This document shows positions 2 to 11,240 of a DNA stretch of 11,240 bases, in pieces; within the stretch, counting starts at the first letter, position 1, and each line of letters begins with the position of its first letter. The DNA lies in the NCBI GenBank assembly GCA_030149405.1, contig JASBRM010000323.1:1-11240 (forward strand). The letters run 5' to 3'. The translations under genes were made by a program, and so were the position numbers. Under the pieces are notes generated by a model. It made no database searches and was not told the origin of the DNA. It saw only the letters and a program-made list of their open reading frames with translations. The DNA is from Neptuniibacter sp. (GTDB lineage: Bacteria; Pseudomonadota; Gammaproteobacteria; Pseudomonadales; Balneatricaceae).

Positions 2-712
2 GAGATAGATCAGCTTTGCACCATGCTTCTGAATAGCCCTACCCCTGAATCAGAATGTATCAAGTGGCTTAATGCACACATTGATAAATTCCATCCTGTT
101 TCACCATTATTACGTATCGCTGAATGCCAGTTGAATCGAACAGACATACTAGGCAAAACACCAGCTAGAAAGATGTCGCCTAATGATCTGATTCAAGCTG
201 TTCAAAATAATTTGCATATGATGCTACAAAATCATTCGATGGTAAAAACTGAAGAAGCACTGCTTGAGTCATTCACTCATTCATATCAGGGTGCAGTCTT
301 CAAATTGAGAGGGAAGAATCAATTTCACAATTTTTTGCAGAGCACAGTGGAGCAACACATCATTTATTCGATTATTGATGACACCCAGAATTACTGTAGA
401 GAGACATTTTCCAAATGGTCAGCTCCCAACTCAGCACAGAGTATTACCGAAAATGAAAGCGACAGAGAGCTATTTCATAACATAGTGGTGCGGGCATGCG
501 ATGAGATACAACAAGCAGCCATCTCTGACTGGAACGTTACTGAGTACAGTTTCGATAATTGGCTTTCAGGAAATGATCTTTCTGATACTAAGACTATAGA
601 CGCCTTTATCAGGAGCTGTTGCTTTTCTCTTATCCAAACGGGTTTTGATCTCGCTAAGGCCCCAAATAAAGAGCCTGCAGACCTCTTTGTTAAAAATATG
701 TTTAGTTACTGA
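2..712 (+). CDS. Hypothetical protein, 5' end probably outside the window
   Basis: The frame is open from base 2 to a TGA at 710-712. The first ATG, at 23, has no Shine-Dalgarno sequence in front of it, so the true start is probably left of the window; from that ATG the protein has 229 residues. I do not recognise the family. It reads as a soluble, mainly helical protein with no signal peptide, membrane segment or obvious catalytic motif. The C-terminal third is acidic, with tryptophans in the NWL and SDW contexts and a paired Cys (SCC) near the end. It lies upstream of and parallel to the replication block but is separated from it by 470 bp, so a shared transcript is not certain. Composition resembles its neighbours. 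That it is coding is likely from its length; its function is unknown. Confidence 0.7.
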   Translation, partial: EIDQLCTMLLNSPTPESECIKWLNAHIDKFHPVSPLLRIAECQLNRTDILGKTPARKMSPNDLIQAVQNNLHMMLQNHSMVKTEEALLESFTHSYQGAVFKLRGKNQFHNFLQSTVEQHIIYSIIDDTQNYCRETFSKWSAPNSAQSITENESDRELFHNIVVRACDEIQQAAISDWNVTEYSFDNWLSGNDLSDTKTIDAFIRSCCFSLIQTGFDLAKAPNKEPADLFVKNMFSY

Positions 713-745
713 TAGTACAAGCCTCTCGATACTTCAGTGTACTTC

Positions 746-766
746 AGCCAGGCCTCATGCCTGGCT
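746..766 (+). terminator. Hairpin after the first gene (weak terminator candidate)
   Basis: AGCCAGGC (746-753) pairs perfectly with GCCTGGCT (759-766) around a 5-nt loop, 34 bases after the stop codon at 712. No T-run follows (AACTATCTCCC), so it is not a textbook intrinsic terminator. It could end transcription inefficiently or stabilise the 3' end of the message. Confidence 0.4.
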
Positions 767-799
767 AACTATCTCCCAATAGTTCCACGCTAAAAGCTT

Positions 800-817
800 A
801 TGCACCTCAAGGTACAT
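800..817. repeat. Palindromic repeat, copy 1
   Basis: ATGCACCTCAAGGTACAT differs at one position from the perfect palindrome at 1088-1105 (8-bp arms around CA). Resemblance continues about 20 bases to the right, where both copies have an AGC followed by TCCATCNCC. The two copies bracket the candidate small ORF at 898-978. It may be an operator for an element-encoded regulator or a repeated protein-binding site; no function can be assigned from sequence. Confidence 0.6.
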
Positions 818-897
818 TAAGCATTGTCCATCTCCGTTTCCCAATATCATGTTTTATGTAATTCCCAGATATAACCCATAGAAATGAGGAACGAATT

Positions 898-978
898 ATG
901 AAAAAAGCAATCAGCCCAACCCCGCCTAGACTTCCTCCTGTAAAGCAAGCAGGACTGCTCTTTCTTTCGACGCCCTAA
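898..978 (+). CDS. Candidate 26-aa peptide
   Basis: An ATG at 898 preceded by GAGGA (886-890, 7-nt spacer) opens 26 codons ending in TAA. The peptide starts MKKAISPTPP, is basic and proline-rich, and ends in a short hydrophobic stretch (LLFLSTP). The good ribosome binding site and a hairpin 40 bases downstream are the main reasons to list it. The Lys/Pro-Thr-Pro-Pro opening vaguely recalls small Pseudomonas hypothetical proteins, but the match is too short to trust. It could also be a leader peptide or chance. It stands alone in a 470-bp gap between two palindromic repeats. Confidence 0.35.
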   Translation: MKKAISPTPPRLPPVKQAGLLFLSTP

Positions 979-1019
979 CACTACACTACCAATCTAAGAT
1001 ATTAACCACAGAATAAAAC

Positions 1020-1052
1020 CAGAGGGTCACACTCCCGCTTGTAAGCCCTCTG
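1020..1052. terminator. Inverted repeat, possible terminator of the small ORF
   Basis: CAGAGGG (1020-1026) is the exact complement of CCCTCTG (1046-1052) across a 19-nt loop, and ATTTCTGATAATT follows. The large loop and lack of a real T-run make it a weak terminator. It sits between the 26-codon ORF and the 302-aa gene. Confidence 0.3.
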
Positions 1053-1087
1053 ATTTCTGATAATTGTACGCCCCACCGCCTAAACCG

Positions 1088-1105
1088 ATGCACCTCAAGG
1101 TGCAT
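1088..1105. repeat. Palindromic repeat, copy 2 (perfect)
   Basis: ATGCACCTCAAGGTGCAT has perfect 8-bp inverted arms around CA and lies 77 bases before the RBS-preceded GTG start of the 302-aa gene. This is a plausible place for an operator controlling the replication block. The other copy is at 800-817. Confidence 0.65.
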
Positions 1106-1181
1106 TCTGAGCGAATCATCCATCACCTTAATTAGACTTTGCATCACATATTTTGAACTTAAACAAGATTAAGGAATTAAA

Positions 1182-2090
1182 GTGAATAGCAAAGAAAATG
1201 AAACCGTATTTACACCAGCTGCTACGAGCAAAAAACTCACAGGTGCTCTTCGATATGCTCAGGAAAACGTAAAGATTGTAGTGAAGGATGGTGCCCTATA
1301 CATCCCGGGGTCTGGAGGTAGAAATGACCTGTCAGATGACCCTAACACTATCACTGAGTTTTTCCGTGAAGCGTCTGACCCAAACCCTGTCATTGCTACA
1401 GGGCATGAAAATCAGCTACTTGCTCTGAGTATTACCAGTAATGATGTTGTTGATGGAATATCCAATATTGCTGCATTAGCTGATCAGTTTGGTATCAACC
1501 CTGAAACTGACATTCTGAAATGCACGTACTCCAAGTCTAATAAAGGTGAGTACGTCATCATTTTTCGCCATAACGGTAAGCGAGTAAAAACGCGAATTGC
1601 GATTCAACCTGGCGTCAGCATCCTAGCTGATGGTGGCCATTTTCACTTGGCGGGTAATAGCTACAAGCTTGGTTGGAATAATACTGTCTGGGCGAAAGAT
1701 TATGAGGATGGTCTAGATCCTATTCTTTCACCGACTGAGTGCCCAGATTCCATCCTGCAACTTGCTGAGATGCCTTCTCCATATGACGCAATCATCAATC
1801 GAGAGTTAAGCCAAACAGAAGCCATTGATATGTTCAGGGCTGGCTTCCGAGGAAATACAGCGATGAAGGATTGCCACGATGCGTTATGTGCCCTTCGAGC
1901 TACAGGCATGGCAAAAAAAGACATCGATCCTTACATGGCGACCGCCATCAGTAATTCAGATTCGCCCATCAACAAGAAGTGGCTGAATCAATGTGCTTGG
2001 TTTGTGTGTTTGCAGTATGAACCAGCCTACCTACCTGACGACAGCACATCTGTTGAGCCTAGCTCTTTGCGAGAACGCTTCACCTTCTAG
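1182..2090 (+). CDS. Degenerate Prim-Pol/PriCT protein (predicted catalytically inactive primase paralogue)
   Basis: The 302-residue protein starts at a GTG with AAGGA six bases upstream. By eye it aligns with residues 10-265 of the primase-helicase encoded at 3144-5396. Residues 20-170 follow the Prim-Pol domain with nearly identical spacing: TG at 73-74, then a strand at the position of the catalytic DxD, then DG at 91-92 matching NG, a KGEYVIIFR segment at the place of GGYHLYFK, and ILADGG (147-152) at the place of IRGEGG. Residues 208-282 follow the primase C-terminal (PriCT) segment, with CALRATGMAKKD matching CSLRSQGIAKSD. The metal-binding aspartates are S83 and T85 here, and the catalytic histidine is V125, so primase/polymerase chemistry is not expected. 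There is no helicase domain. I infer a regulatory, DNA-binding or primase-partner role. The family call by eye is fairly good; the role is a guess. Confidence 0.7.
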   Translation: MNSKENETVFTPAATSKKLTGALRYAQENVKIVVKDGALYIPGSGGRNDLSDDPNTITEFFREASDPNPVIATGHENQLLALSITSNDVVDGISNIAALADQFGINPETDILKCTYSKSNKGEYVIIFRHNGKRVKTRIAIQPGVSILADGGHFHLAGNSYKLGWNNTVWAKDYEDGLDPILSPTECPDSILQLAEMPSPYDAIINRELSQTEAIDMFRAGFRGNTAMKDCHDALCALRATGMAKKDIDPYMATAISNSDSPINKKWLNQCAWFVCLQYEPAYLPDDSTSVEPSSLRERFTF

Positions 2091-2156
2091 CCAACAGAGA
2101 GCAAAGGTAATCGCGCCTTTGTTCTCACAAATTTTTCATCAAAGAAGAGACAGAAA

Positions 2157-3056
2157 ATGCATACAAAAGAACACTCGTCTAGTTTGGCTCCGATCGATAG
2201 CTCTGAGTTATCTGTAGATAGCAATAATCCCGAATGTTTCACTGAAACTGTAAACATCAAACCATTCGGGTTTAAAAACTTATCAGACGGTAATGACCTT
2301 AACACCCTGTATGTGAAATATGGTATCCGCTCTATCGAAGGGCCGCTTTGGCGCATTCGCACAGTCCCACTCGGTTCGCGAGAAGCAGAACTAGTTTTAG
2401 GCGCAATTCGCGGCCACGAGCACTATTTGTACAATGTGACCACCCGAAAAAGTCCTCAGGGCCATTACGATCTCGTAGATATTACAGCCATAGAGCCACC
2501 ATTCTGCTATGAGGATATGCTTCAGGAGTATCAAGACGAACTTAGCCGCCTTTACCCTTACCAGCGTACCCCATTTATCGAAGGAGAGCTTAATCATCAC
2601 AGCAGCTTAAGTTGCTCAGCTCTCACTACTCACTGCGGGGAAAATTCTGACAGATTTAAACTCACATCTGGAATCATCGAACAAGATCCCAACACGAAAG
2701 CCTGGTTTCAAAAGTTAACTGATCCAAAGGTAGAAATCGGGAAAATTGTTTTTGTAACACCTGATTCGACTGAGGCGCCTAACCCAGCAGAAAAAAGCAA
2801 TATTGAATACAAGATACTAATCGCTGGTGAAAACCATTGGTCACACTTTTGCACAGCTGGCTTTACCGATACTGCAAAACTTTTACTTGAAGCGGTAACC
2901 GGAGATACCTCCGCTATTTATCGAATCATAGCTGCAAAGAACCGACTTGGTCTCTATCACATCGTTGATATCCAACCGATAGACGCCTGTGATTTCTCAC
3001 TGTCGGATGCTGAAATGCTAAAGCTTCTGTTCCCAGAAGATAAGTCAGCACCTTAA
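2157..3056 (+). CDS. Hypothetical protein with an internal domain duplication
   Basis: The 299-residue protein starts at an ATG with a purine-rich but weak ribosome site (AAGAAGAGA). I do not recognise the family. It contains two diverged copies of one module: residues about 50-135 and 216-293. In each, a segment of the form A-[EK]-L-x-L-x-A-x-x-G is followed by an aromatic strand, then G-x-Y-x-[LI]-V-D-I-x-x-I, then an acidic helix ending in L-[YF]-P. The linker (about 140-215) is polar. Predicted strands dominate, so a small beta-barrel or similar fold is possible, but I cannot show it. It begins 66 bases after the degenerate primase gene and ends 87 bases before the primase-helicase, all in the same direction, so a replication-accessory role such as DNA or primase binding is inferred only from context. 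Confidence 0.75.
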   Translation: MHTKEHSSSLAPIDSSELSVDSNNPECFTETVNIKPFGFKNLSDGNDLNTLYVKYGIRSIEGPLWRIRTVPLGSREAELVLGAIRGHEHYLYNVTTRKSPQGHYDLVDITAIEPPFCYEDMLQEYQDELSRLYPYQRTPFIEGELNHHSSLSCSALTTHCGENSDRFKLTSGIIEQDPNTKAWFQKLTDPKVEIGKIVFVTPDSTEAPNPAEKSNIEYKILIAGENHWSHFCTAGFTDTAKLLLEAVTGDTSAIYRIIAAKNRLGLYHIVDIQPIDACDFSLSDAEMLKLLFPEDKSAP

Positions 3057-3086
3057 ACATCCCATTTATTTAACACCAACTTGGCC

Positions 3087-3123
3087 ACAGGTAGAGAAAC
3101 CTCTACCTGTACCTACATTTTTT
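3087..3123 (+). terminator. Intrinsic terminator or attenuator before the primase-helicase gene
   Basis: ACAGGTAGAG (3087-3096) pairs perfectly with CTCTACCTGT (3101-3110) around an AAAC tetraloop, and six T residues follow at 3118-3123 after seven intervening bases. It lies 31 bases after the 299-aa gene's stop and 20 bases before the start codon of the primase-helicase. It could end the upstream transcript, or limit read-through so that less helicase than accessory protein is made. Confidence 0.65.
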
Positions 3124-3143
3124 ATCTTAAAAAGGTAACAAAC

Positions 3144-5396
3144 ATGGATACTGATATTCAGCTATCAGACATAGCAGCATTGCTTCAGCACGGAATAGAA
3201 GTAATTGAAGCTAGACCAGGCGAAAAGATCCCACTGCATAGTGGCTGGCAAGACAAATCAACTTCTGACTTCACTAAGGTTGTAAGCTGGCTACACCGCA
3301 ACCCTAAGATTAACTTTGCCATAAAAACAGGCTCTGACTCAGGAATGTTCGTTGTCGACCTGGACGTTAAGCCAACCGCTAACGGATTAGAGTCAATCAA
3401 AGAATTTTCCGGTGAAGAGATCCCCTTTGATTTCAAGAAGAACATGTATGCCAAAACACCATCCGGTGGTTATCACCTGTATTTCAAACTGCCTTCTGGC
3501 GTCACGGCCAAACAATGTGTAGGCGCATTAGATGCAGTTGATATCCGGGGTGAAGGAGGGCTAGCGATATGCGCTCCTTCATCTTATGACGTGGATGGTA
3601 CACAGGTTCGCTACACGCTATGTAATCCTGACGGACCTATAGCAGAACCACCTGATTGGGTCATCCAACTGTTGATTCAAGTGCAGCATAAGGCCTCAAA
3701 ACAAAAAGCCGAGCGGCAAAAACAGTCAACCACTCTGCTCCAAGAAATCATTTCAGGGGTTCCTGAAGGCTCTCGTGATGAAGTGCTATTCAAATTTGCT
3801 TGTAGTCTTCGATCTCAAGGCATAGCAAAGAGCGATGCCCTCTCTTTTGTAAGAACGGCAGCTGAAAATTGTTCACCTGCTTTTGACACATGTTTGGCAG
3901 AAGAAAAAGTACATCGTGTTTATTCAACATATCCAGAGCTATCTGATTTTGAATATACAGATTGGGGAAACTCAAAGCGATGGTCATCTATGTTCAGCAA
4001 GATGTTTAAATGGGTAGCAGAACTAAAGACTTGGTTTCGCTGGACCGGCTTTTTCTGGGCCGAAGATATACACGGCGGCACAAAACAAACCATCGAACCA
4101 TTTCTTCAGGACATTCATGAAGAGAAAAAAATTCTGGAATATGAGTTGGCAGAAAAATCTGAGTCCGACTCTAAAGTTTCCTATATCACGAATCGATTAG
4201 AAGAATGTTCAAAATGGTATAAACAGTCTCAAGGCTCACAACGCATTAGCTCAACCCTCGATCTGGCCAAAACACAGCCTGGGGTATCTATAAGCTTCAA
4301 TGAATTTGATAGCAAAGGTCACTATCTCGGCACCAACAATGGTGTATTAAAACTGACAGATCGAAGTTTTAGTTCCAATGACCCTGCTTATCTAATTACG
4401 AAACATTCTTCCGCAGATTATGATCCTGCTGCCGAATGCCCTAATTGGATTAAATTCTTGGGCACAACCTTTGGGCATAACCAAAACATCATTAAATTTG
4501 TCCAGCGCATAGTAGGACAATGTCTATTGGGAACAGACGATAAAAGCACTTTCTTTATCTTCAGCGGGGCTGGCGCTAATGGTAAATCAACTCTCGTGGA
4601 TACGCTGAAAACGCTGCTAGCTGATTATGCATGCGTAACATCTGCACAAGCGATCACGCATAACAAAACCAATAAAGAGTACTATCTTGCCACCTTGATA
4701 GGTATTCGCTTAGTTATCATCAACGAGACCCAGAAAGGCGCTCGTCTTGATGAAGCAATGGTCAAGCTTCTCGTCGACTCAGGTATTATTCAGGCAAGGA
4801 GGATTTATTCTGAGCCTATTTCTTTCCAGCCTGTATGTACACCGATTCTGGTTACCAATTACCCGCCACACATCAGTGCTGATTACTCTATTAATCGTAG
4901 GCTACTATTTGTTCCGTTCGAACATAAGATCCCTGAAGCAGATCGTGATCCGTTGTTCCGTCAAAAGTACCTGGAACCAGAACTATCAGGCATTTTAAAT
5001 TGGGCGTTAGAAGGCTGTGCTGATTACCTTCAGCAGGGGTTAAATCCACCTGATGAGATTGTTAAAGCAACCAAAGCCTATATCTTTGAAAATGATAAGG
5101 TCTCTCAATTCATCAGTGAATGCTGCACTGTAAACCCGCACTCCAAAATTGAATCTCAAGAACTCTATAAAGTTTTCCTTGAGTGGTGCGATGCAAAAGG
5201 GTGTCAGCGATTTGGTCAGAAGCGGATGAATCAGGAGCTACGCAGCCACGACTTTGAGGTAGAACGATCAACTGGTGGCGTTTTCTATGTATTCGGACTA
5301 AACCTGAAACAACCTGCGGATCAGTTGAGAGCTAAATTTTCTCCACCAGATACTCAGATTGATCCCCGAATTGCTGAGATGACTGATCTGGATTGA
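3144..5396 (+). CDS. Primase-helicase: Prim-Pol + PriCT + D5/SF3 helicase
   Basis: The 750-residue protein is taken from the ATG at 3144, which has AAAGGT seven bases upstream; a TTG at 3081 would add 21 residues but lacks a ribosome site and reads through the hairpin. Domains in order: Prim-Pol at about 10-190 with DLD (D72, D74), GGYH (H111) and DIRGEGG, all expected for an active primase/polymerase; a PriCT segment at about 198-265; a Trp-rich D5 N-terminal region to about 395; an SF3 AAA+ helicase with Walker A GAGANGKST (475-483), Walker B LVIINE (523-528), sensor ILVTN (N572) and arginines RR (585-586); and a C-terminal winged-helix-like region near 670-725. This is the phage P4 alpha / plasmid and satellite type of replication initiator, which primes and unwinds DNA at an element-borne origin. 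It is complete and appears active. It is co-directional with the two upstream accessory genes. Confidence 0.95.
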   Translation: MDTDIQLSDIAALLQHGIEVIEARPGEKIPLHSGWQDKSTSDFTKVVSWLHRNPKINFAIKTGSDSGMFVVDLDVKPTANGLESIKEFSGEEIPFDFKKNMYAKTPSGGYHLYFKLPSGVTAKQCVGALDAVDIRGEGGLAICAPSSYDVDGTQVRYTLCNPDGPIAEPPDWVIQLLIQVQHKASKQKAERQKQSTTLLQEIISGVPEGSRDEVLFKFACSLRSQGIAKSDALSFVRTAAENCSPAFDTCLAEEKVHRVYSTYPELSDFEYTDWGNSKRWSSMFSKMFKWVAELKTWFRWTGFFWAEDIHGGTKQTIEPFLQDIHEEKKILEYELAEKSESDSKVSYITNRLEECSKWYKQSQGSQRISSTLDLAKTQPGVSISFNEFDSKGHYLGTNNGVLKLTDRSFSSNDPAYLITKHSSADYDPAAECPNWIKFLGTTFGHNQNIIKFVQRIVGQCLLGTDDKSTFFIFSGAGANGKSTLVDTLKTLLADYACVTSAQAITHNKTNKEYYLATLIGIRLVIINETQKGARLDEAMVKLLVDSGIIQARRIYSEPISFQPVCTPILVTNYPPHISADYSINRRLLFVPFEHKIPEADRDPLFRQKYLEPELSGILNWALEGCADYLQQGLNPPDEIVKATKAYIFENDKVSQFISECCTVNPHSKIESQELYKVFLEWCDAKGCQRFGQKRMNQELRSHDFEVERSTGGVFYVFGLNLKQPADQLRAKFSPPDTQIDPRIAEMTDLD

Positions 5397-5405
5397 TACA
5401 CACTG

Positions 5406-5432
5406 GGTGGAGTTATAACTTATAGCTCCACC
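5406..5432 (+). terminator. Long hairpin after the primase-helicase gene
   Basis: GGTGGAGTTATA (5406-5417) pairs with TATAGCTCCACC (5421-5432) around ACT, with one G-U pair in 12. It starts 10 bases after the stop codon. No T-run follows, so it may be a weak terminator, an RNA-stabilising structure or part of an origin. Confidence 0.45.
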
Positions 5433-5444
5433 TACTCCACTCCA

Positions 5445-5680
5445 ACAGGTAACGACACGTTCCTTCCTTATAAATACAGGTAACAATTCATGGCTTGTTG
5501 TGGGTAATAACGATGACCATGATATACACCCTGACCGGGCTGCGATTCCGCTCGTAGTTGAATATCCTCGAAATGGATTCCGGTAGCTGCCTGATAGCAC
5601 ACCCACCTCTCTGCTTTCAGGAATGGTTAGAGCAACAGTACTGACCCGACCCGTTTAAATATCCAAACAGCGGTAACGAC
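5445..5680. repeat. Iteron-like ACAG(C)GGTAAC motifs
   Basis: ACAGGTAAC occurs at 5445-5453 and 5476-5484, 31 bases apart (about three helical turns) on the same strand. ACAGCGGTAACGAC is at 5667-5680, and a looser GGTAAT is at 5503-5508. Clustering in the non-coding DNA beside a P4-type initiator suggests binding sites, but three short copies with uneven spacing are modest evidence. Confidence 0.35.
5468..5481 (+). repeat. 14-bp repeat TTATAAATACAGGT, copy 1
   Basis: TTATAAATACAGGT occurs here and at 9398-9411, where it lies 29 bases before the start codon of the 103-aa gene. The TATAAA part could serve as a -10 element. The ATAAATACAG part resembles one half of a LexA box, but the matching CTG half-site is absent. 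This copy overlaps an iteron-like motif. Confidence 0.35.
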
Positions 5681-6047
5681 TTCAATTGAACCTCTTGTGC
5701 CGGATGTGATGATAAGCATCGAAAACCACACAACGCTTACTGATAGTAATGATCGTCATACAGTGACGAGGGAGCGTGTTTTACCCTATGTTGGCTTCCT
5801 TTATAAATTTTTTATAAAAAGGGGGGGTATAGAGTACCGTTTACGGTCTGGTTCGATTGATAATTACAACACCACTCACGAACAATCTGCGACACGCAGT
5901 GGAGCAGTTGTGAAGTTGAGTGATGCAATCAATCTTCCTGATGGAATGTGAATGGCTAGCTGCGTTTGTCTGGTGCTGCAGGCCTCGATGCAGGTATACC
6001 CTGAATTTCGATTTCACCTGTTACAGCTAGATAGACCTGGTTAAATA

Positions 6048-6110
6048 ACTGCTACGCAGTAAGTGAGTGCATACTTCTCCTGCAGGAGCAGTCGGAATTA
6101 TTTCTCACTT
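6048..6110 (-). terminator. Palindrome cluster at the integrase 3' end
   Basis: Reading the - strand past the integrase stop there are, in order, AAGTGAG/CTCACTT outer arms (6104-6110 with 6061-6067) enclosing the perfect palindrome CTCCTGCAGGAG (6077-6088), then a short ACTGC-GTA-GCAGT hairpin (6048-6060) followed by TATTTAA. Together they could form the integrase terminator. A recombination or protein-binding role is also possible. Confidence 0.4.
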
Positions 6111-7153
6111 CAGCTTGTTTCTTTCTTTTGGGTGTCCAACCCATTGAGTATATCTACCGCTTTATCAGCAACGGATTTGAGTTCTAGGTGGGCATAGCGC
6201 TGTGTCATCTGTATTGATGAGTGACCAAGCAATTTACTCAGTTCGTAAAGCGACATACCTCCACGCAGTAATTTAGAAGCGGCATGGTGACGTAGGTCGT
6301 GCGTACGAAATCCATCCAAACCCGCTCGTTTAAAGGCATTCTGAACCGCTTTAGGCGTGTACTTTTTAACTGAGCCGTCCTTACCTGGGAATACATAAGT
6401 ACCGCCATCAGATCCATTTCTACGACGAGTTAAAATGGCTTTTGCTCGATCAGTCAGGTGGATAACAGATTCCGTTTTGGTTTTAGTGCGCCACAACCGG
6501 ATTTCACCTGCATCCACATCAATATCAGACCACTTCAGTTGCTGGATTTCATTAAGACGCGCTGCGGTATCAAGCAGCAATACCACTAGGTCATATCCAT
6601 CACTGGATCGACTGGATAGCAATTCATTTAGAAGTCGCTGCTCCTCCTCATCAGATAGAACCCGATCCCTGGCATTACGGAGTTTTATTTTTGGTAACAC
6701 CAACTGAGAAGGAACAGCGAAGCCACTTGCTTTGGCACATGCGATCATACCTTTAACCAAAACAAATAACTGCTGGATAGTTCCGTCAGATACGCCGTCC
6801 TGAACACGCAACAGACGTAGCTTTTCCATATCCGGTGTTGATAGATCTTCAAGTAATGCTCTTAATTTCAACACGCGAGGTAACTGGGTTTCTAATGCAC
6901 GAATCTGAGCGATTAGATTGCGTTCAACTACCCGTGGTTTCTGTGATTTCTGGTATAGGTAGATAGCATCCTGAATTGAGATAGATGGCAGTTCACCCAA
7001 TCGTTGCTGACGGTAAATTGATTCTCTGAAATTATGCTCAAAGCGACGGGCTAGGTTCTTGTTAGGAGTACCCGTTGATCGGACATACACCTTCCCATCA
7101 ATCTGGAATTCACAATAATAGTTTTTAGAACCGTTACGTTTGTAGACTGTCAT
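6110..7153 (-). CDS. int: Tyrosine recombinase / phage-type integrase
   Basis: The 347-residue protein catalyses site-specific integration and excision through a covalent 3'-phosphotyrosine intermediate. Residues 1-55 resemble the beta-rich arm-binding start of P4/P2-type integrases (YKRNGSKNYYCEF). Residues about 60-160 are the core-binding helical domain, and 165-345 the catalytic domain. The full active site is visible: R199 in the AARLNEI box, a lysine in TKTKTES (K224 or K226), H285 and R288 in THDLRHH, H311 in LLGHSS and the nucleophile Y320 in RYAHL. Length is normal for the family. The ATG at 7151-7153 has only a poor ribosome site. It is oriented against the primase block, and a remnant of a duplicated gene end and a cargo pair lie just upstream. 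It is most likely the element's own integrase; the attachment site is not identified. Confidence 0.95.
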   Translation of the reverse strand: MTVYKRNGSKNYYCEFQIDGKVYVRSTGTPNKNLARRFEHNFRESIYRQQRLGELPSISIQDAIYLYQKSQKPRVVERNLIAQIRALETQLPRVLKLRALLEDLSTPDMEKLRLLRVQDGVSDGTIQQLFVLVKGMIACAKASGFAVPSQLVLPKIKLRNARDRVLSDEEEQRLLNELLSSRSSDGYDLVVLLLDTAARLNEIQQLKWSDIDVDAGEIRLWRTKTKTESVIHLTDRAKAILTRRRNGSDGGTYVFPGKDGSVKKYTPKAVQNAFKRAGLDGFRTHDLRHHAASKLLRGGMSLYELSKLLGHSSIQMTQRYAHLELKSVADKAVDILNGLDTQKKETS

Positions 7154-7228: not shown

Positions 7229-7285
7229 TTACTTTGGTTTGTTTTTAGCCTGTTTGATGGACTGATAGTAGGTACTGGAAACCAT
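7229..7285 (-). pseudogene. 3'-terminal remnant of a paralogue of the 8753-9109 gene
   Basis: On the - strand, codons here read STYYQSIKQAKNKPK and then a TAA stop (7229-7231). This is nearly the C-terminal end of the intact 118-aa protein at 8753-9109, STYYQSIKQANAKAK plus stop. Only the last 15-16 codons are recognisable; an in-frame TAG lies a few codons upstream of an ATG at 7283-7285 that has no properly spaced ribosome site. DNA identity is 33 of 34 across 7245-7278 and falls off toward the stop. It is therefore the tail of a duplicated or displaced gene, not a working gene. Confidence 0.75.
7245..7278. repeat. 34-bp direct repeat, left copy
   Basis: It matches 8769-8802 at 33 of 34 positions; the one difference is A at 7265 against G at 8789. 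The copies are 1,524 bases apart and enclose the LysE/Lrp pair with nothing else large between them. It lies 92 bases upstream of the integrase start codon. Confidence 0.9.
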
Positions 7286-7343
7286 ATTCCCCTAATCAAT
7301 TAAGGTCAGCTAACGACACTTTCCTGGCATAGGCAACGCCTCA

Positions 7344-7991
7344 TCATTCCGTATTTGAGGCTCCAATCGTACGAATTCCAAGCCAAATAAGAAGTATTGA
7401 AAGGAGTTGAAGTTGAATGTTTAACAATACTCCATTACCCGAATCAGTAACTACCTTAGCTAATTTACTACTTCCAATAGAATAAATTAAATCAAAAGCG
7501 AGACCTAACAGAACAAGTATTGTGCCCAGCACAAAGAACTGAGCACTTACATTATCGGCTGAAAAATCTACAAACTGGGGAAGTAAGATCGAGCAAAAAA
7601 GTAGAGCCTTAGGATTCAAAAGGTTAGTGAGTAGCCCCTTGCGTACTGATGCGAAGAGACTAAAATCTACCCGCTTTTGTGTAACCTTACCGAAAGACAG
7701 TTCTTTCTTGGCAACTTCATCCAATAACATTCGTACGCCAAGATAAATTAAATATCCTCCCCCCAGAAATTTAATGATGTCATAAGCCCAAGGGGAGGTC
7801 TTGACTATAAGCGCGAGTCCGCTCGCAGCCAATATCACATGAATTGTTCTTGCTATCCCTAAGCCAATAGTAACCGCTATAGCGGTTTGACGCCCATTAC
7901 TAATTCCTGATTGTAAAATCAGTACCATATCTGGCCCAGGCACTGAGTAAACTGTAATCAAGGCTGCTACATACAACCAAAGATCGCTCAT
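7344..7991 (-). CDS. LysE/RhtB-family amino-acid exporter
   Basis: The 215-residue inner-membrane protein has about six hydrophobic segments (roughly 5-27, 37-62, 72-90, 117-138, 150-172 and 188-208), the family layout and length. Family motifs are visible: PGPD at 18-21, GLGIA near 43-47, the GGYLIYLG helix at 78-85 and NPKA at 126-129. LysE/RhtB proteins export amino acids or related small molecules, using the proton gradient; the substrate here cannot be told from sequence. The ATG at 7989-7991 follows a purine-rich GGAAGAGAGAGG stretch. The gene is divergent from an Lrp-type regulator, the classical arrangement in which the regulator senses an amino acid and controls its exporter. The pair lies between 34-bp repeats and appears to be cargo. 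Confidence 0.93.
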   Translation of the reverse strand: MSDLWLYVAALITVYSVPGPDMVLILQSGISNGRQTAIAVTIGLGIARTIHVILAASGLALIVKTSPWAYDIIKFLGGGYLIYLGVRMLLDEVAKKELSFGKVTQKRVDFSLFASVRKGLLTNLLNPKALLFCSILLPQFVDFSADNVSAQFFVLGTILVLLGLAFDLIYSIGSSKLAKVVTDSGNGVLLNIQLQLLSILLIWLGIRTIGASNTE

Positions 7992-8126: not shown

Positions 8127-8609
8127 ATGCCAAAAATCAAGCTAGACAAATATGATAGGAAAATATTAGAAGCCCTTCAAAAGAAAGGGCGACTAAGTAA
8201 TATTGAGCTTGCAGAAGAAATAGGGCTTTCTCCTTCCCCCTGTTTAAGGCGTGTTCGTTTATTGGAAGAGTCTGGGGTTATCTCAGGATATGCTGCAAAC
8301 CTTGATCGCAATGAACTAGGTCTTGGCTTAACTGTCTTCGTAGATGTAAAAATGGCTCACCATAGCGATGAAATAGCCGCAGAGTTTAGGGAAGCCCTCT
8401 TGCATATTCCAGAAATCATCATGGCTTACTTGGTATCTGGAGAATCAGATTTCTTGCTACAAGTAACTGTTCCAGATCTCAATGCATACGAAATCCTTCT
8501 TACTAGAAAGTTACTTAAACTTCCGGGCGTAAATGACATTAGAAGCAATTTTGCAATTAAGCCTCTAAAGCAACAAGCCACATTGCCTTTAGATCACCTA
8601 CCAGTTTAA
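8127..8609 (+). CDS. Lrp/AsnC-family transcriptional regulator
   Basis: The 160-residue protein has the full family layout. An N-terminal winged helix-turn-helix spans about 5-58 (LDKYDRKILEAL, then NIELAEEIGLSPSPCLRRVRLLEESGVI), and a C-terminal RAM effector/oligomerisation domain spans about 66-148, with YLVSGESDFLLQV at 101-113 near the usual ligand pocket. Family members bind amino acids and form dimers to octamers that wrap DNA. The closest match in style is the Lrp-like regulator beside LysE exporters, so it probably controls the divergent exporter and itself. The ATG at 8127 is chosen because the domain begins at once after it; the preceding sequence has only TTTTGAAATAAA. The last 12 residues form a short non-conserved tail. 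Confidence 0.93.
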   Translation: MPKIKLDKYDRKILEALQKKGRLSNIELAEEIGLSPSPCLRRVRLLEESGVISGYAANLDRNELGLGLTVFVDVKMAHHSDEIAAEFREALLHIPEIIMAYLVSGESDFLLQVTVPDLNAYEILLTRKLLKLPGVNDIRSNFAIKPLKQQATLPLDHLPV

Positions 8610-8752: not shown

Positions 8753-9109
8753 CTACTTCGCCTTAGCATTAGCCTGTTTGATGGACTGGTAGTAGGTACT
8801 GGCACCTGCCTTTGAAAGCGAACAGCCTTCCATAAACACATTGATAATCTGACTGCGGCTATACCCTGATAACTGATCATATGCTTCTCTAGCCGCATCC
8901 ATCTTGGAACAACCATCCTTAACCAATTTGGCTGATGCACTGATACATTTTTTCATCCCATCAGTAATTTCAACAGGTACGCTCTTACGACCCCTAGATC
9001 TGGTTTTAGCCTGTGGCTTTTGGGTGTTTTTTAACTCTGCCTTTTTCTTACAGTCATCAGATCTTTGGTCTTTCTGATCTTTAGGTGGCGGCGTTTTAAC
9101 GTGCGTCAT
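8753..9109 (-). CDS. Small basic hypothetical protein with a conserved C-terminal motif
   Basis: The 118-residue protein overlaps the stop of the upstream gene by four bases (ATGA), so the two are translationally coupled. Residues 1-48 are Lys/Arg/Pro-rich and probably disordered (TPPPKDQKDQ, KTRSRGRK). Residues about 49-112 form a helical domain ending in NVFMEGCSLSKAGASTYYQS. I recall an AGA-[AST]-TYYQN-like ending after a Lys/Arg-Ser-rich helix from small hypothetical proteins of marine gammaproteobacteria and their mobile elements, but I cannot name the family. The basic tail and the helical core suggest a nucleic-acid-binding protein; this is inference. Its last 34 bases of repeat recur at 7245-7278, beyond the LysE/Lrp cargo. 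Confidence 0.75.
   Translation of the reverse strand: MTHVKTPPPKDQKDQRSDDCKKKAELKNTQKPQAKTRSRGRKSVPVEITDGMKKCISASAKLVKDGCSKMDAAREAYDQLSGYSRSQIINVFMEGCSLSKAGASTYYQSIKQANAKAK
8769..8802. repeat. 34-bp direct repeat, right copy
   Basis: This copy lies inside the 3' end of the 118-aa gene (8753-9109) and matches 7245-7278 at 33 of 34 bases. Together the copies bound a 1.5-kb segment holding the exporter, the regulator and the 69-bp palindromic element. Confidence 0.9.
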
Positions 9110-10415: not shown

Positions 10416-11240
10416 TTATATAACACTCAGTGATCGATACCTGCTTCCAAGCCCTTTTGTAGCAAAAGCAACTGCATCATGGGCATGGAGGCTTTCAAAA
10501 TGCTCAACCTTAAGCCAAAAGTCTGAAAAGCCTTTAGTGTGTTGCAAAGTATTTTTTATGCGCCTTGCAGCATCTTCACAAAACATTAGGTTATTACCAT
10601 TTAAGCGAGCAAATTCTTGCTCATCTTCTCTTTTAACTACTGTCAAAACAGCTGTCTTTAAGGAGCTCTCAACTAAATCAATAAGACGCATTATCGGAAA
10701 AGCACCTAGATCTTTATCTAATTCAACACAAACTGTAGCTAAGCTTCGTTGGCTGTGGGGAGTCGCGTAAGACCCCTTTTCAGAAAGAAGCCAGCCCTGA
10801 ACAGTTTCTGATGAGACCATTTCTCCGCTAGGGAACGTTGTTTCAAACTCTTTTTGTAACAACTGTCTAGACAATGCCGCCGAACAAGGGCAGGTGGAAG
10901 AATACGGTATACGAGTTGCTAGCTCTATTCTCACCTCACCAGTCTCGTTTAAAGAAATGCTCAGAGAATTAGAATAATTAGACCAGCCAGTGTTATCACT
11001 TATTAAAGAGTGCCTTGCTATTGATAAGTCAAAATCCATTTTGATTTTCGATCGACTAGAAATTCCATCTTGGCTAGAGAGTATTTTTTTTGCAAGAATC
11101 TTCAATATGCCGATATTTAAAGGACTTTCTTTCAAGAACTTGCATAGCTCAATGTAAATTCTGGACATATGAATACCTCTATCTTCATTACTAATGAGGT
11201 TCACATGCGAATCAATTTTCGCAATGACATCCACAAACCC
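10416..11240 (-). CDS. folE2: GTP cyclohydrolase I type IB (FolE2), N-terminus beyond the window
   Basis: FolE2 converts GTP to dihydroneopterin triphosphate, the first step of folate and of queuosine precursor synthesis, in the cytosol. Family signatures are clear. Counting from a GTG at 11232-11234: RGIHMSRIY at 19-27, IPYSSTCPCSAALSRQ at 109-124 with the metal-site cysteine region C115/C117, ATPHSQRS at 157-164 with H160, FCEDAAR at 218-224 and KVEHFESLHAHDA at 242-254. The frame stays open to the window edge, and complete FolE2 proteins have more residues before this point, so the gene is very probably cut by the window and the GTG is not the start. FolE2 can use metals other than zinc and often replaces FolE when zinc is scarce, commonly under Zur control; the promoter is outside the window. 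Confidence 0.93.
   Translation of the reverse strand, partial: GFVDVIAKIDSHVNLISNEDRGIHMSRIYIELCKFLKESPLNIGILKILAKKILSSQDGISSRSKIKMDFDLSIARHSLISDNTGWSNYSNSLSISLNETGEVRIELATRIPYSSTCPCSAALSRQLLQKEFETTFPSGEMVSSETVQGWLLSEKGSYATPHSQRSLATVCVELDKDLGAFPIMRLIDLVESSLKTAVLTVVKREDEQEFARLNGNNLMFCEDAARRIKNTLQHTKGFSDFWLKVEHFESLHAHDAVAFATKGLGSRYRSLSVI

Follow-up and report, generated by a model that had tools for sequence, protein, structure and literature searches.

The window, by which we mean the whole 11,240-nucleotide stretch analyzed here, carries three genes that lie on the same strand in the order A, C, and B, separated by 66 and 87 bases, together with the tyrosine integrase gene of the element to which they belong (Table 1). 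We use A for the ORF of primary interest, B for the primase-helicase, and C for the ORF between them. A consists of 302 codons with a GTG start and no internal stop, and its probable ribosome-binding site stands six bases 5' of the start. B was matched by PF09250 (92.8 bits), PF08706 (85.7 bits), and TIGR01613 (246.4 bits), as well as by PriCT_1 at 19.9 bits, which is below that family's cut-off of 21.1, and its active site is complete (D72, D74, H111, D133, and R135). C had no match in Pfam, PHROGs, NCBIfam, or PADLOC; it shows a faint internal repeat between residues 76 to 114 and 239 to 277 (11 bits by phmmer, nothing by blastp), and this orphan is possibly a third replication component.

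We also looked into the sequence signals around these genes. The hairpin between A and C has 12 pairs and a fold energy of −18.2 kcal/mol (z = −5.87), and 0 of 200 shuffles were as stable; across positions 690 to 3200, four terminator-like sites were found versus 2.2 expected. A simple scan of the same positions found no sigma-70-like promoter, and the transcript units are therefore guessed. Upstream of A, the palindrome ATGCACCTCAAGGT[AG]CAT had two matches versus 0.04 expected, and none of 200 shuffles contained two.

Table 1. Features of the window, with positions counted from its first letter
Feature	Position	Strand	Evidence
Palindrome copy 1, ATGCACCTCAAGGTACAT, one mismatch, upstream of A	800..817	+	Motif scan
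Palindrome copy 2, ATGCACCTCAAGGTGCAT, upstream of A	1088..1105	+	Motif scan
AAGGA, probable ribosome-binding site of A	1171..1175	+	Sequence
A: stand-alone Prim-Pol homologue, catalytically dead as judged from its residues	1182..2090	+	302 aa; PF09250, PHROG 5852, profile, model, Foldseek
Motif I of A: S-I-T instead of D-x-D, residues 83-85	1428..1436	+	Alignments
Motif II of A: V instead of H, residue 125	1554..1556	+	Alignments
Motif III of A: S-I-L instead of D-[IVL]-R, residues 146-148	1617..1625	+	Alignments
Strong hairpin with T-rich tail between A and C, terminator-like	2097..2126	+	Fold energy, terminator scan
C: 299-aa protein, family not recognised	2157..3056	+	Pfam, PHROGs, NCBIfam, PADLOC searches
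B: Prim-Pol/PriCT-like/D5-family primase-helicase, intact active site	3144..5396	+	750 aa; Pfam, TIGR01613, alignment
Tyrosine integrase of the element	6110..7153	-	PF00589 (107.7 bits), PHROG 1

Between B and the integrase gene lie 713 bases (5397 to 6109) without a convincing gene. An inverted repeat there (5406 to 5432) is placed like a terminator after B, and a search of this stretch for repeat families turned up none exceeding two copies. The sequences CAGGTAACGACACGTTCCT and CAGCTAACGACACTTTCCT (89% identical; 5446 to 5464 and 7307 to 7325) flank the integrase gene and are possible recombination sites. Farther along, a 49-base direct repeat (84%; 7230 to 7278 and 8754 to 8802) encloses a LysE-type exporter gene (7344 to 7991, minus strand) and an Lrp/AsnC-type regulator gene (8127 to 8609, plus strand); because the right copy of the repeat is the 3' end of ORF 8753-9109, the enclosed segment may be cargo inserted there or may reflect duplication of an attachment site. 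At the contig end, folE2 (GTP cyclohydrolase FolE2; 10416 to 11240) is cut off and is 54 to 58% identical to the copies in the genus, and a second folE2 of the same genome lies on contig 341, where nearby ORFs by eye resemble TniQ/TnsD and transposase genes. No virion genes were recognized among the proteins scanned with Pfam and PHROGs, where matches to packaging families had E values of 0.065 or worse. Tetranucleotide use in the window correlated at 0.92 with that of seven stretches of its genome (0.70 for the right flank alone), and the G+C content of the window, 0.42, is near the 0.43 to 0.48 of those stretches. With bin contamination considered, the assignment of the window's contig (contig 162) to its host is likely.

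Next, we evaluated the relationship of A to the Prim-Pols (PF09250, archaeo-eukaryotic primase superfamily). PF09250 matched A at 23.4 bits versus a curated Pfam cut-off of 22.8 (24.8 bits in another run), and PHROG 5852 (DNA polymerase/primase) matched it at 3.3e-5; NCBIfam and PADLOC had no match. A profile made from ten Prim-Pols, with both A and B excluded, scored A at 34.7 bits (best of 1,000 shuffles of A, 2.9 bits), and the first 265 residues of B used as a phmmer query scored it at 26.8 bits (best of 1,000 shuffles, 4.3 bits). Scores this far above those of the shuffles put the likeness of A to Prim-Pol well beyond chance, and at the level of sequence we regard the homology as established. 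The best stretch shared by A and B scored 22.6 bits (phmmer), and A aligned with B residues 15 to 244, which span the Prim-Pol and PriCT regions. The first-pass annotation had described A as following the first part of B over both regions with matched motif spacing, and both descriptions held: counted inclusively, each protein has 13 residues from the T of TG to the second D position and 10 from the first D position to the next G. PriCT itself had no Pfam match in A; a profile containing B extended its match to residue 257, into the PriCT region, where A keeps a GxR motif (G221/R223) and has modelled helices between residues 189 and 278. When the PDB was searched by sequence, the 10 matches of A included no Prim-Pol, and a 68-row Prim-Pol alignment used as the query found ORF904.

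AlphaFold2 run on A alone gave a poor model (pLDDT, 38.6). The usable model was guided by 67 aligned Prim-Pols (B of the window, locus L075, and 65 viral sequences) and had a mean pLDDT of 75.6 and a pTM of 0.66; its ten-residue blocks scored 78 to 94 over residues 51 to 110 and 86 to 91 over residues 121 to 150, with both ends and residues 161 to 175 being weak. The model lays out a Prim-Pol core at about residues 12 to 165 and a helical PriCT-like region at about 189 to 278, and the motif positions sit on strands 79 to 86, 123 to 129, and 145 to 148. Searching the PDB with Foldseek at an E value of 0.001 or less gave nine matches, every one of them pRN1 ORF904 (3m1m, 9aam, 1rni, and 1ro0) or NrS-1 PrimPol (6a9w, 6jon, 6k9a, 6jop, and 7rr3), with modest TM-scores by query (0.27 to 0.46) and rmsd values of 6.8 to 17.5. 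In a library of viral structures, the named top matches (best 50 of 432) were mostly Prim-Pol or primase proteins. Since the alignment steers the model, the fold match supports a Prim-Pol fold in A and is not independent proof of it. Neither an unrelated predicted fold nor a confident placement in another family, the two outcomes that the first-pass annotation had named as counting against a retained fold, was seen, with PF09250 and Foldseek both pointing to Prim-Pol.

We then compared the catalytic positions of A with those of other Prim-Pols. In a 12-row alignment and in a wider one, D72, D74, H111, D133, and R135 of B correspond to S83, T85, V125, S146, and L148 of A. The substitutions at D72, D74, H111, and the arginine of the DIRG motif had been listed correctly in the first-pass annotation, and that of the motif III aspartate (D133 to S146) is a fifth replacement that it had not included. 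Two conserved positions outside the active site are also changed, K28 (K in 73 of 81 sequences) to Y and G109 (G in 77 of 81) to E, and A has a six-residue gap at the segment around the conserved P145 of other Prim-Pols. The scaffold residues P42, T73, G74, G151, G152, G158, G221, and R223 are kept (12-row alignment). These comparisons show, as far as sequence goes, a protein that has lost the catalytic residues and kept the family pattern.

To place these replacements among relatives, we surveyed 83 other Prim-Pol ORFs, two of which were gapped at each column, leaving 81. The first position of motif I was D in 79 and E in 2, the second was D in all 81, and motif II was H in 80 and Q in 1. Motif III had D in 77 and E in 4 at its first position and R in all 81, counts that are biased because 68 of the 83 ORFs were among the matches listed by a scan whose pattern called for D and R in motif III; it made no such demand on motifs I and II. 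The phylum genomes contributed 29 further ORFs, 26 of which aligned here: the first motif I aspartate was present in 26 of 26 and the second in 24, the exceptions being one E and one H in a broken piece, and motif II and the motif III arginine were more variable. Both motif I acids were absent from none of the 107 other Prim-Pol ORFs (of 112) with letters in those columns.

In the account given in PMC5862659, the motif I and motif III acids are nearly universal in the families covered there, motif II varies among families, with the histidine replaced by Gln, Tyr, Arg, or Lys in some, and PolpTN2 lost both its primase and its polymerase activity when the two motif I aspartates were replaced by leucine. 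In light of the PolpTN2 mutants and the near-universal acids, we infer that priming by A through the known chemistry is not to be expected.

The first-pass annotation had gone further and taken A for a duplicated half of the primase that lost catalysis. The part of this description that stood is a catalytically dead Prim-Pol homologue adjoining an intact primase-helicase; its origin as a copy of B did not gain the same support. Among 75 Prim-Pols scored against A by phmmer, B ranked 14th (26.8 bits, with 13 of the 74 others higher), and the best match (36.9 bits) was L115, a phage locus with a 313-aa stand-alone Prim-Pol (ORF 3845-4786) followed by a separate 481-aa ORF that by eye looks like a D5/P4-type helicase. 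The viral comparison set was picked for likeness to A, and this ranking therefore favors the others over B. When single sequences were added to a base profile, B came second of 66 (44.2, versus 44.9 for the first and a median of 38.9). In the tree, the branches of A and B were very long (3.55 and 2.32) and carried no starred support, and an AU test of a clade of A plus B gave a P value of 0.517, by which the clade is neither shown nor rejected. In size and layout, A is like the stand-alone primases of roughly 300 aa, with Prim-Pol and PriCT regions, that accompany a separate helicase gene in some phages. Uncut open frames of less than 420 aa made up 21 of the 83 surveyed Prim-Pol ORFs. Descent from a stand-alone primase of the L115 type is thus at least as good an account of A as duplication of B.

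We also assessed how widely A and its pairing with B occur. A is known as a single copy, and the pair was found once. The conservation of A's substitutions and of the gene pair across elements had been proposed as a check in the first-pass annotation; no orthologue of A was found in the plasmids, phages, and family and order genomes searched, and no second pair in the class and phylum genomes. Specifically, tblastn at 1e-5 detected no orthologue in plasmids and phages (at an E value of 10, six records each, the lowest at 5e-5 being a Prim-Pol of a Thermaerobacter plasmid). None was found in 116 genomes of the family or in 390 genomes of the order besides the window's own, where the one match (L009; E value = 0.0098) fell in an ORF unlike a primase by eye, and none appeared in scans of genome contigs and viral contigs, which used a few short peptide words and detect close relatives only. 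With the window's genome excepted, no second near pair of PF09250 matches on one contig was seen among 274 genomes of the class, of which 21 had a match, or among 398 of the phylum, of which 54 did; the two sets overlap in part.

The viral loci gave the same picture. No second Prim-Pol-like ORF (at least 80 aa; E value of 0.05) was seen in the fetched, often short flanks of 145 viral Prim-Pol loci, made up of 67 among the matches listed in the pattern scan and 78 new ones from 80 of 145 relatives; a few of these loci share a contig. One candidate second pair, at L174, was rejected as a single Prim-Pol domain interrupted by an in-frame stop; this viral gene (1824 to 4583) carries the stop inside the domain, as recoding, error, or decay would produce. 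Dead Prim-Pols more divergent than A could escape searches of the kind used. Other parts of the element were sparsely represented as well: the relatives of B and of the integrase in the collections searched were all distant (about 21 to 41% identity), and no relatives of C, ORF 2-712, or ORF 8753-9109 were found, C having one weak match (E value = 0.03) in a LysR-type gene. Among the open-licence papers searched, judged by titles and the beginnings of abstracts, none was recognized as reporting a Prim-Pol without catalysis together with an active partner, which is no proof of absence.

For the function of A, we give about an even chance to its being a Prim-Pol pseudoenzyme that is kept as a non-catalytic replication partner or regulator. 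A probably helps or controls the copying of the element's DNA without making primers. In its likeliest role, that of a putative non-catalytic partner of B, it may use its retained fold and helical C-terminal region to bind single-stranded template, nucleotide, or B itself, and once bound it could govern the sites, timing, or frequency of priming by B. Its location beside an intact primase-helicase was counted in favor of the partner role. Furthermore, the A-C-B run opens with A, and the predicted terminator-like hairpin comes after this first gene, an arrangement that might yield A in excess of B; such an excess would suit a structural partner and a brake alike.

Work on related primases bears on this proposal from both sides. 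The helix-bundle domain of the pRN1 primase is described as preparing substrates and handing them over to the catalytic domain (PMC11009956) and as binding a GTG template motif and nucleotides (PMC8076596), and helix-bundle domain mutants of NrS-1 PrimPol are reported to prime weakly (PMC8718748). Non-catalytic subunits, PriX and UL8, support primases in other systems (PMC5862659, PMC10345425, PMC8187027). However, the isolated pRN1 domains are reported to show no activity when mixed (PMC8076596), which counts against the simplest version of the partner role.

A narrower reading, which we consider possible but somewhat doubtful, is that A is a negative regulator, a dead primase occupying the priming sites or partners of B and thereby limiting copy number or the timing of replication. 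The loss of catalytic residues from a protein that keeps the family pattern is what a dominant-negative decoy would look like, the position of A ahead of the hairpin and of C and B would allow its excess, and two palindrome copies lie upstream of it; yet the palindromes could belong to another regulator, the promoter scan leaves the transcript units as guesses, and the absence of orthologues from the searches weighs against this reading.

The palindromes enter a second alternative, in which A would be an initiator or autorepressor that binds specific DNA sequences, with the Prim-Pol fold serving only as a scaffold, and would act, for example, on the two palindromes rather than on B. We judge it unlikely. 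ColE2 Rep is an initiator. It is described as a plasmid Rep protein with a Prim-Pol core (PMC10345425), and the palindromes upstream of A exceed chance; against this, A matched no HTH or winged-helix family in Pfam, PHROGs, or NCBIfam, and nothing ties it to the palindromes.

We also considered whether A could be the functionless, decaying remnant of an older primase whose place the fused primase-helicase B has taken. Its lost active-site residues, the changes at some other conserved positions, and the failure to find orthologues would fit such a history, and phages do carry a stand-alone Prim-Pol with a separate helicase gene after it (L115), an arrangement of which A may be a left-over. However, A retains an intact 302-codon frame, a ribosome-binding site, and its scaffold residues. 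We simulated drift by introducing neutral changes from A's own codons until the five given sites had all changed (5,000 runs); at that point the medians were 1.12 substitutions per site and 11 stops. An open frame remained in 2 of the 5,000 runs and at least seven of the eight scaffold residues were kept in 27, and no run had both. Passive decay of A is thus unlikely, and an intact A points, from a single known copy, to selection on a protein without catalysis. We rate the relic as very unlikely. Finally, catalysis of something else with shifted residues, such as nucleotide binding or another transfer reaction, is highly improbable: motif II does vary among families of the superfamily, but PMC5862659 calls the acids of motifs I and III nearly universal, and no acidic pair replacing S83/T85 was seen by eye on the same strand of A.

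Returning to A as a kept, non-catalytic partner or regulator, we compared it with known systems. Prim-Pols are treated as enzymes, and a clear case of a pseudoenzyme next to an active relative would demonstrate that binding or control can by itself be reason enough to retain the fold; the A-B pair would also offer a small system in which to study what places or restricts priming on a mobile element. The closest layout, L115, resembles A in length, in joining a Prim-Pol domain to a helical C-terminal region, and in its place upstream of a replicative helicase. It differs in that its active-site residues are present, whereas A has none of the five, and in that the helicase gene of A's element bears an intact Prim-Pol domain of its own. 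In the mitochondrial helicase Twinkle, the N-terminal domain is of primase type, is without priming activity, and is kept in a helicase system. That primase-like domain has a TOPRIM (DnaG-type) fold and is fused to the helicase, in contrast to A, which is a separate Prim-Pol protein.

The solved structures closest to the A model, pRN1 ORF904 and NrS-1 PrimPol, are unlike A in being catalytically active (PMC8076596, PMC8718748). PriX serves as a working analogy: it is described as a non-catalytic subunit with a gene separate from that of the catalytic primase, and efficient primer synthesis depends on it (PMC5862659, PMC10345425); unlike A, which is a whole Prim-Pol plus PriCT protein with a dead catalytic domain, PriX resembles the PriL C-terminal/PriCT fold. 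UL8 of the herpesvirus helicase-primase is a second working analogy, with a polymerase fold that keeps one of three catalytic aspartates and a suggested DNA-binding and scaffolding role in that complex (PMC8187027); it is related to B-family polymerases and not to Prim-Pol, and we claim no homology. A is a member of neither the PriX nor the UL8 family. By analogy, we hold with roughly balanced confidence that a whole Prim-Pol pseudoenzyme may be devoted here, in a bacterial mobile element, to acting as non-catalytic subunit or brake for an active Prim-Pol primase-helicase, which would make A the Prim-Pol counterpart of UL8.
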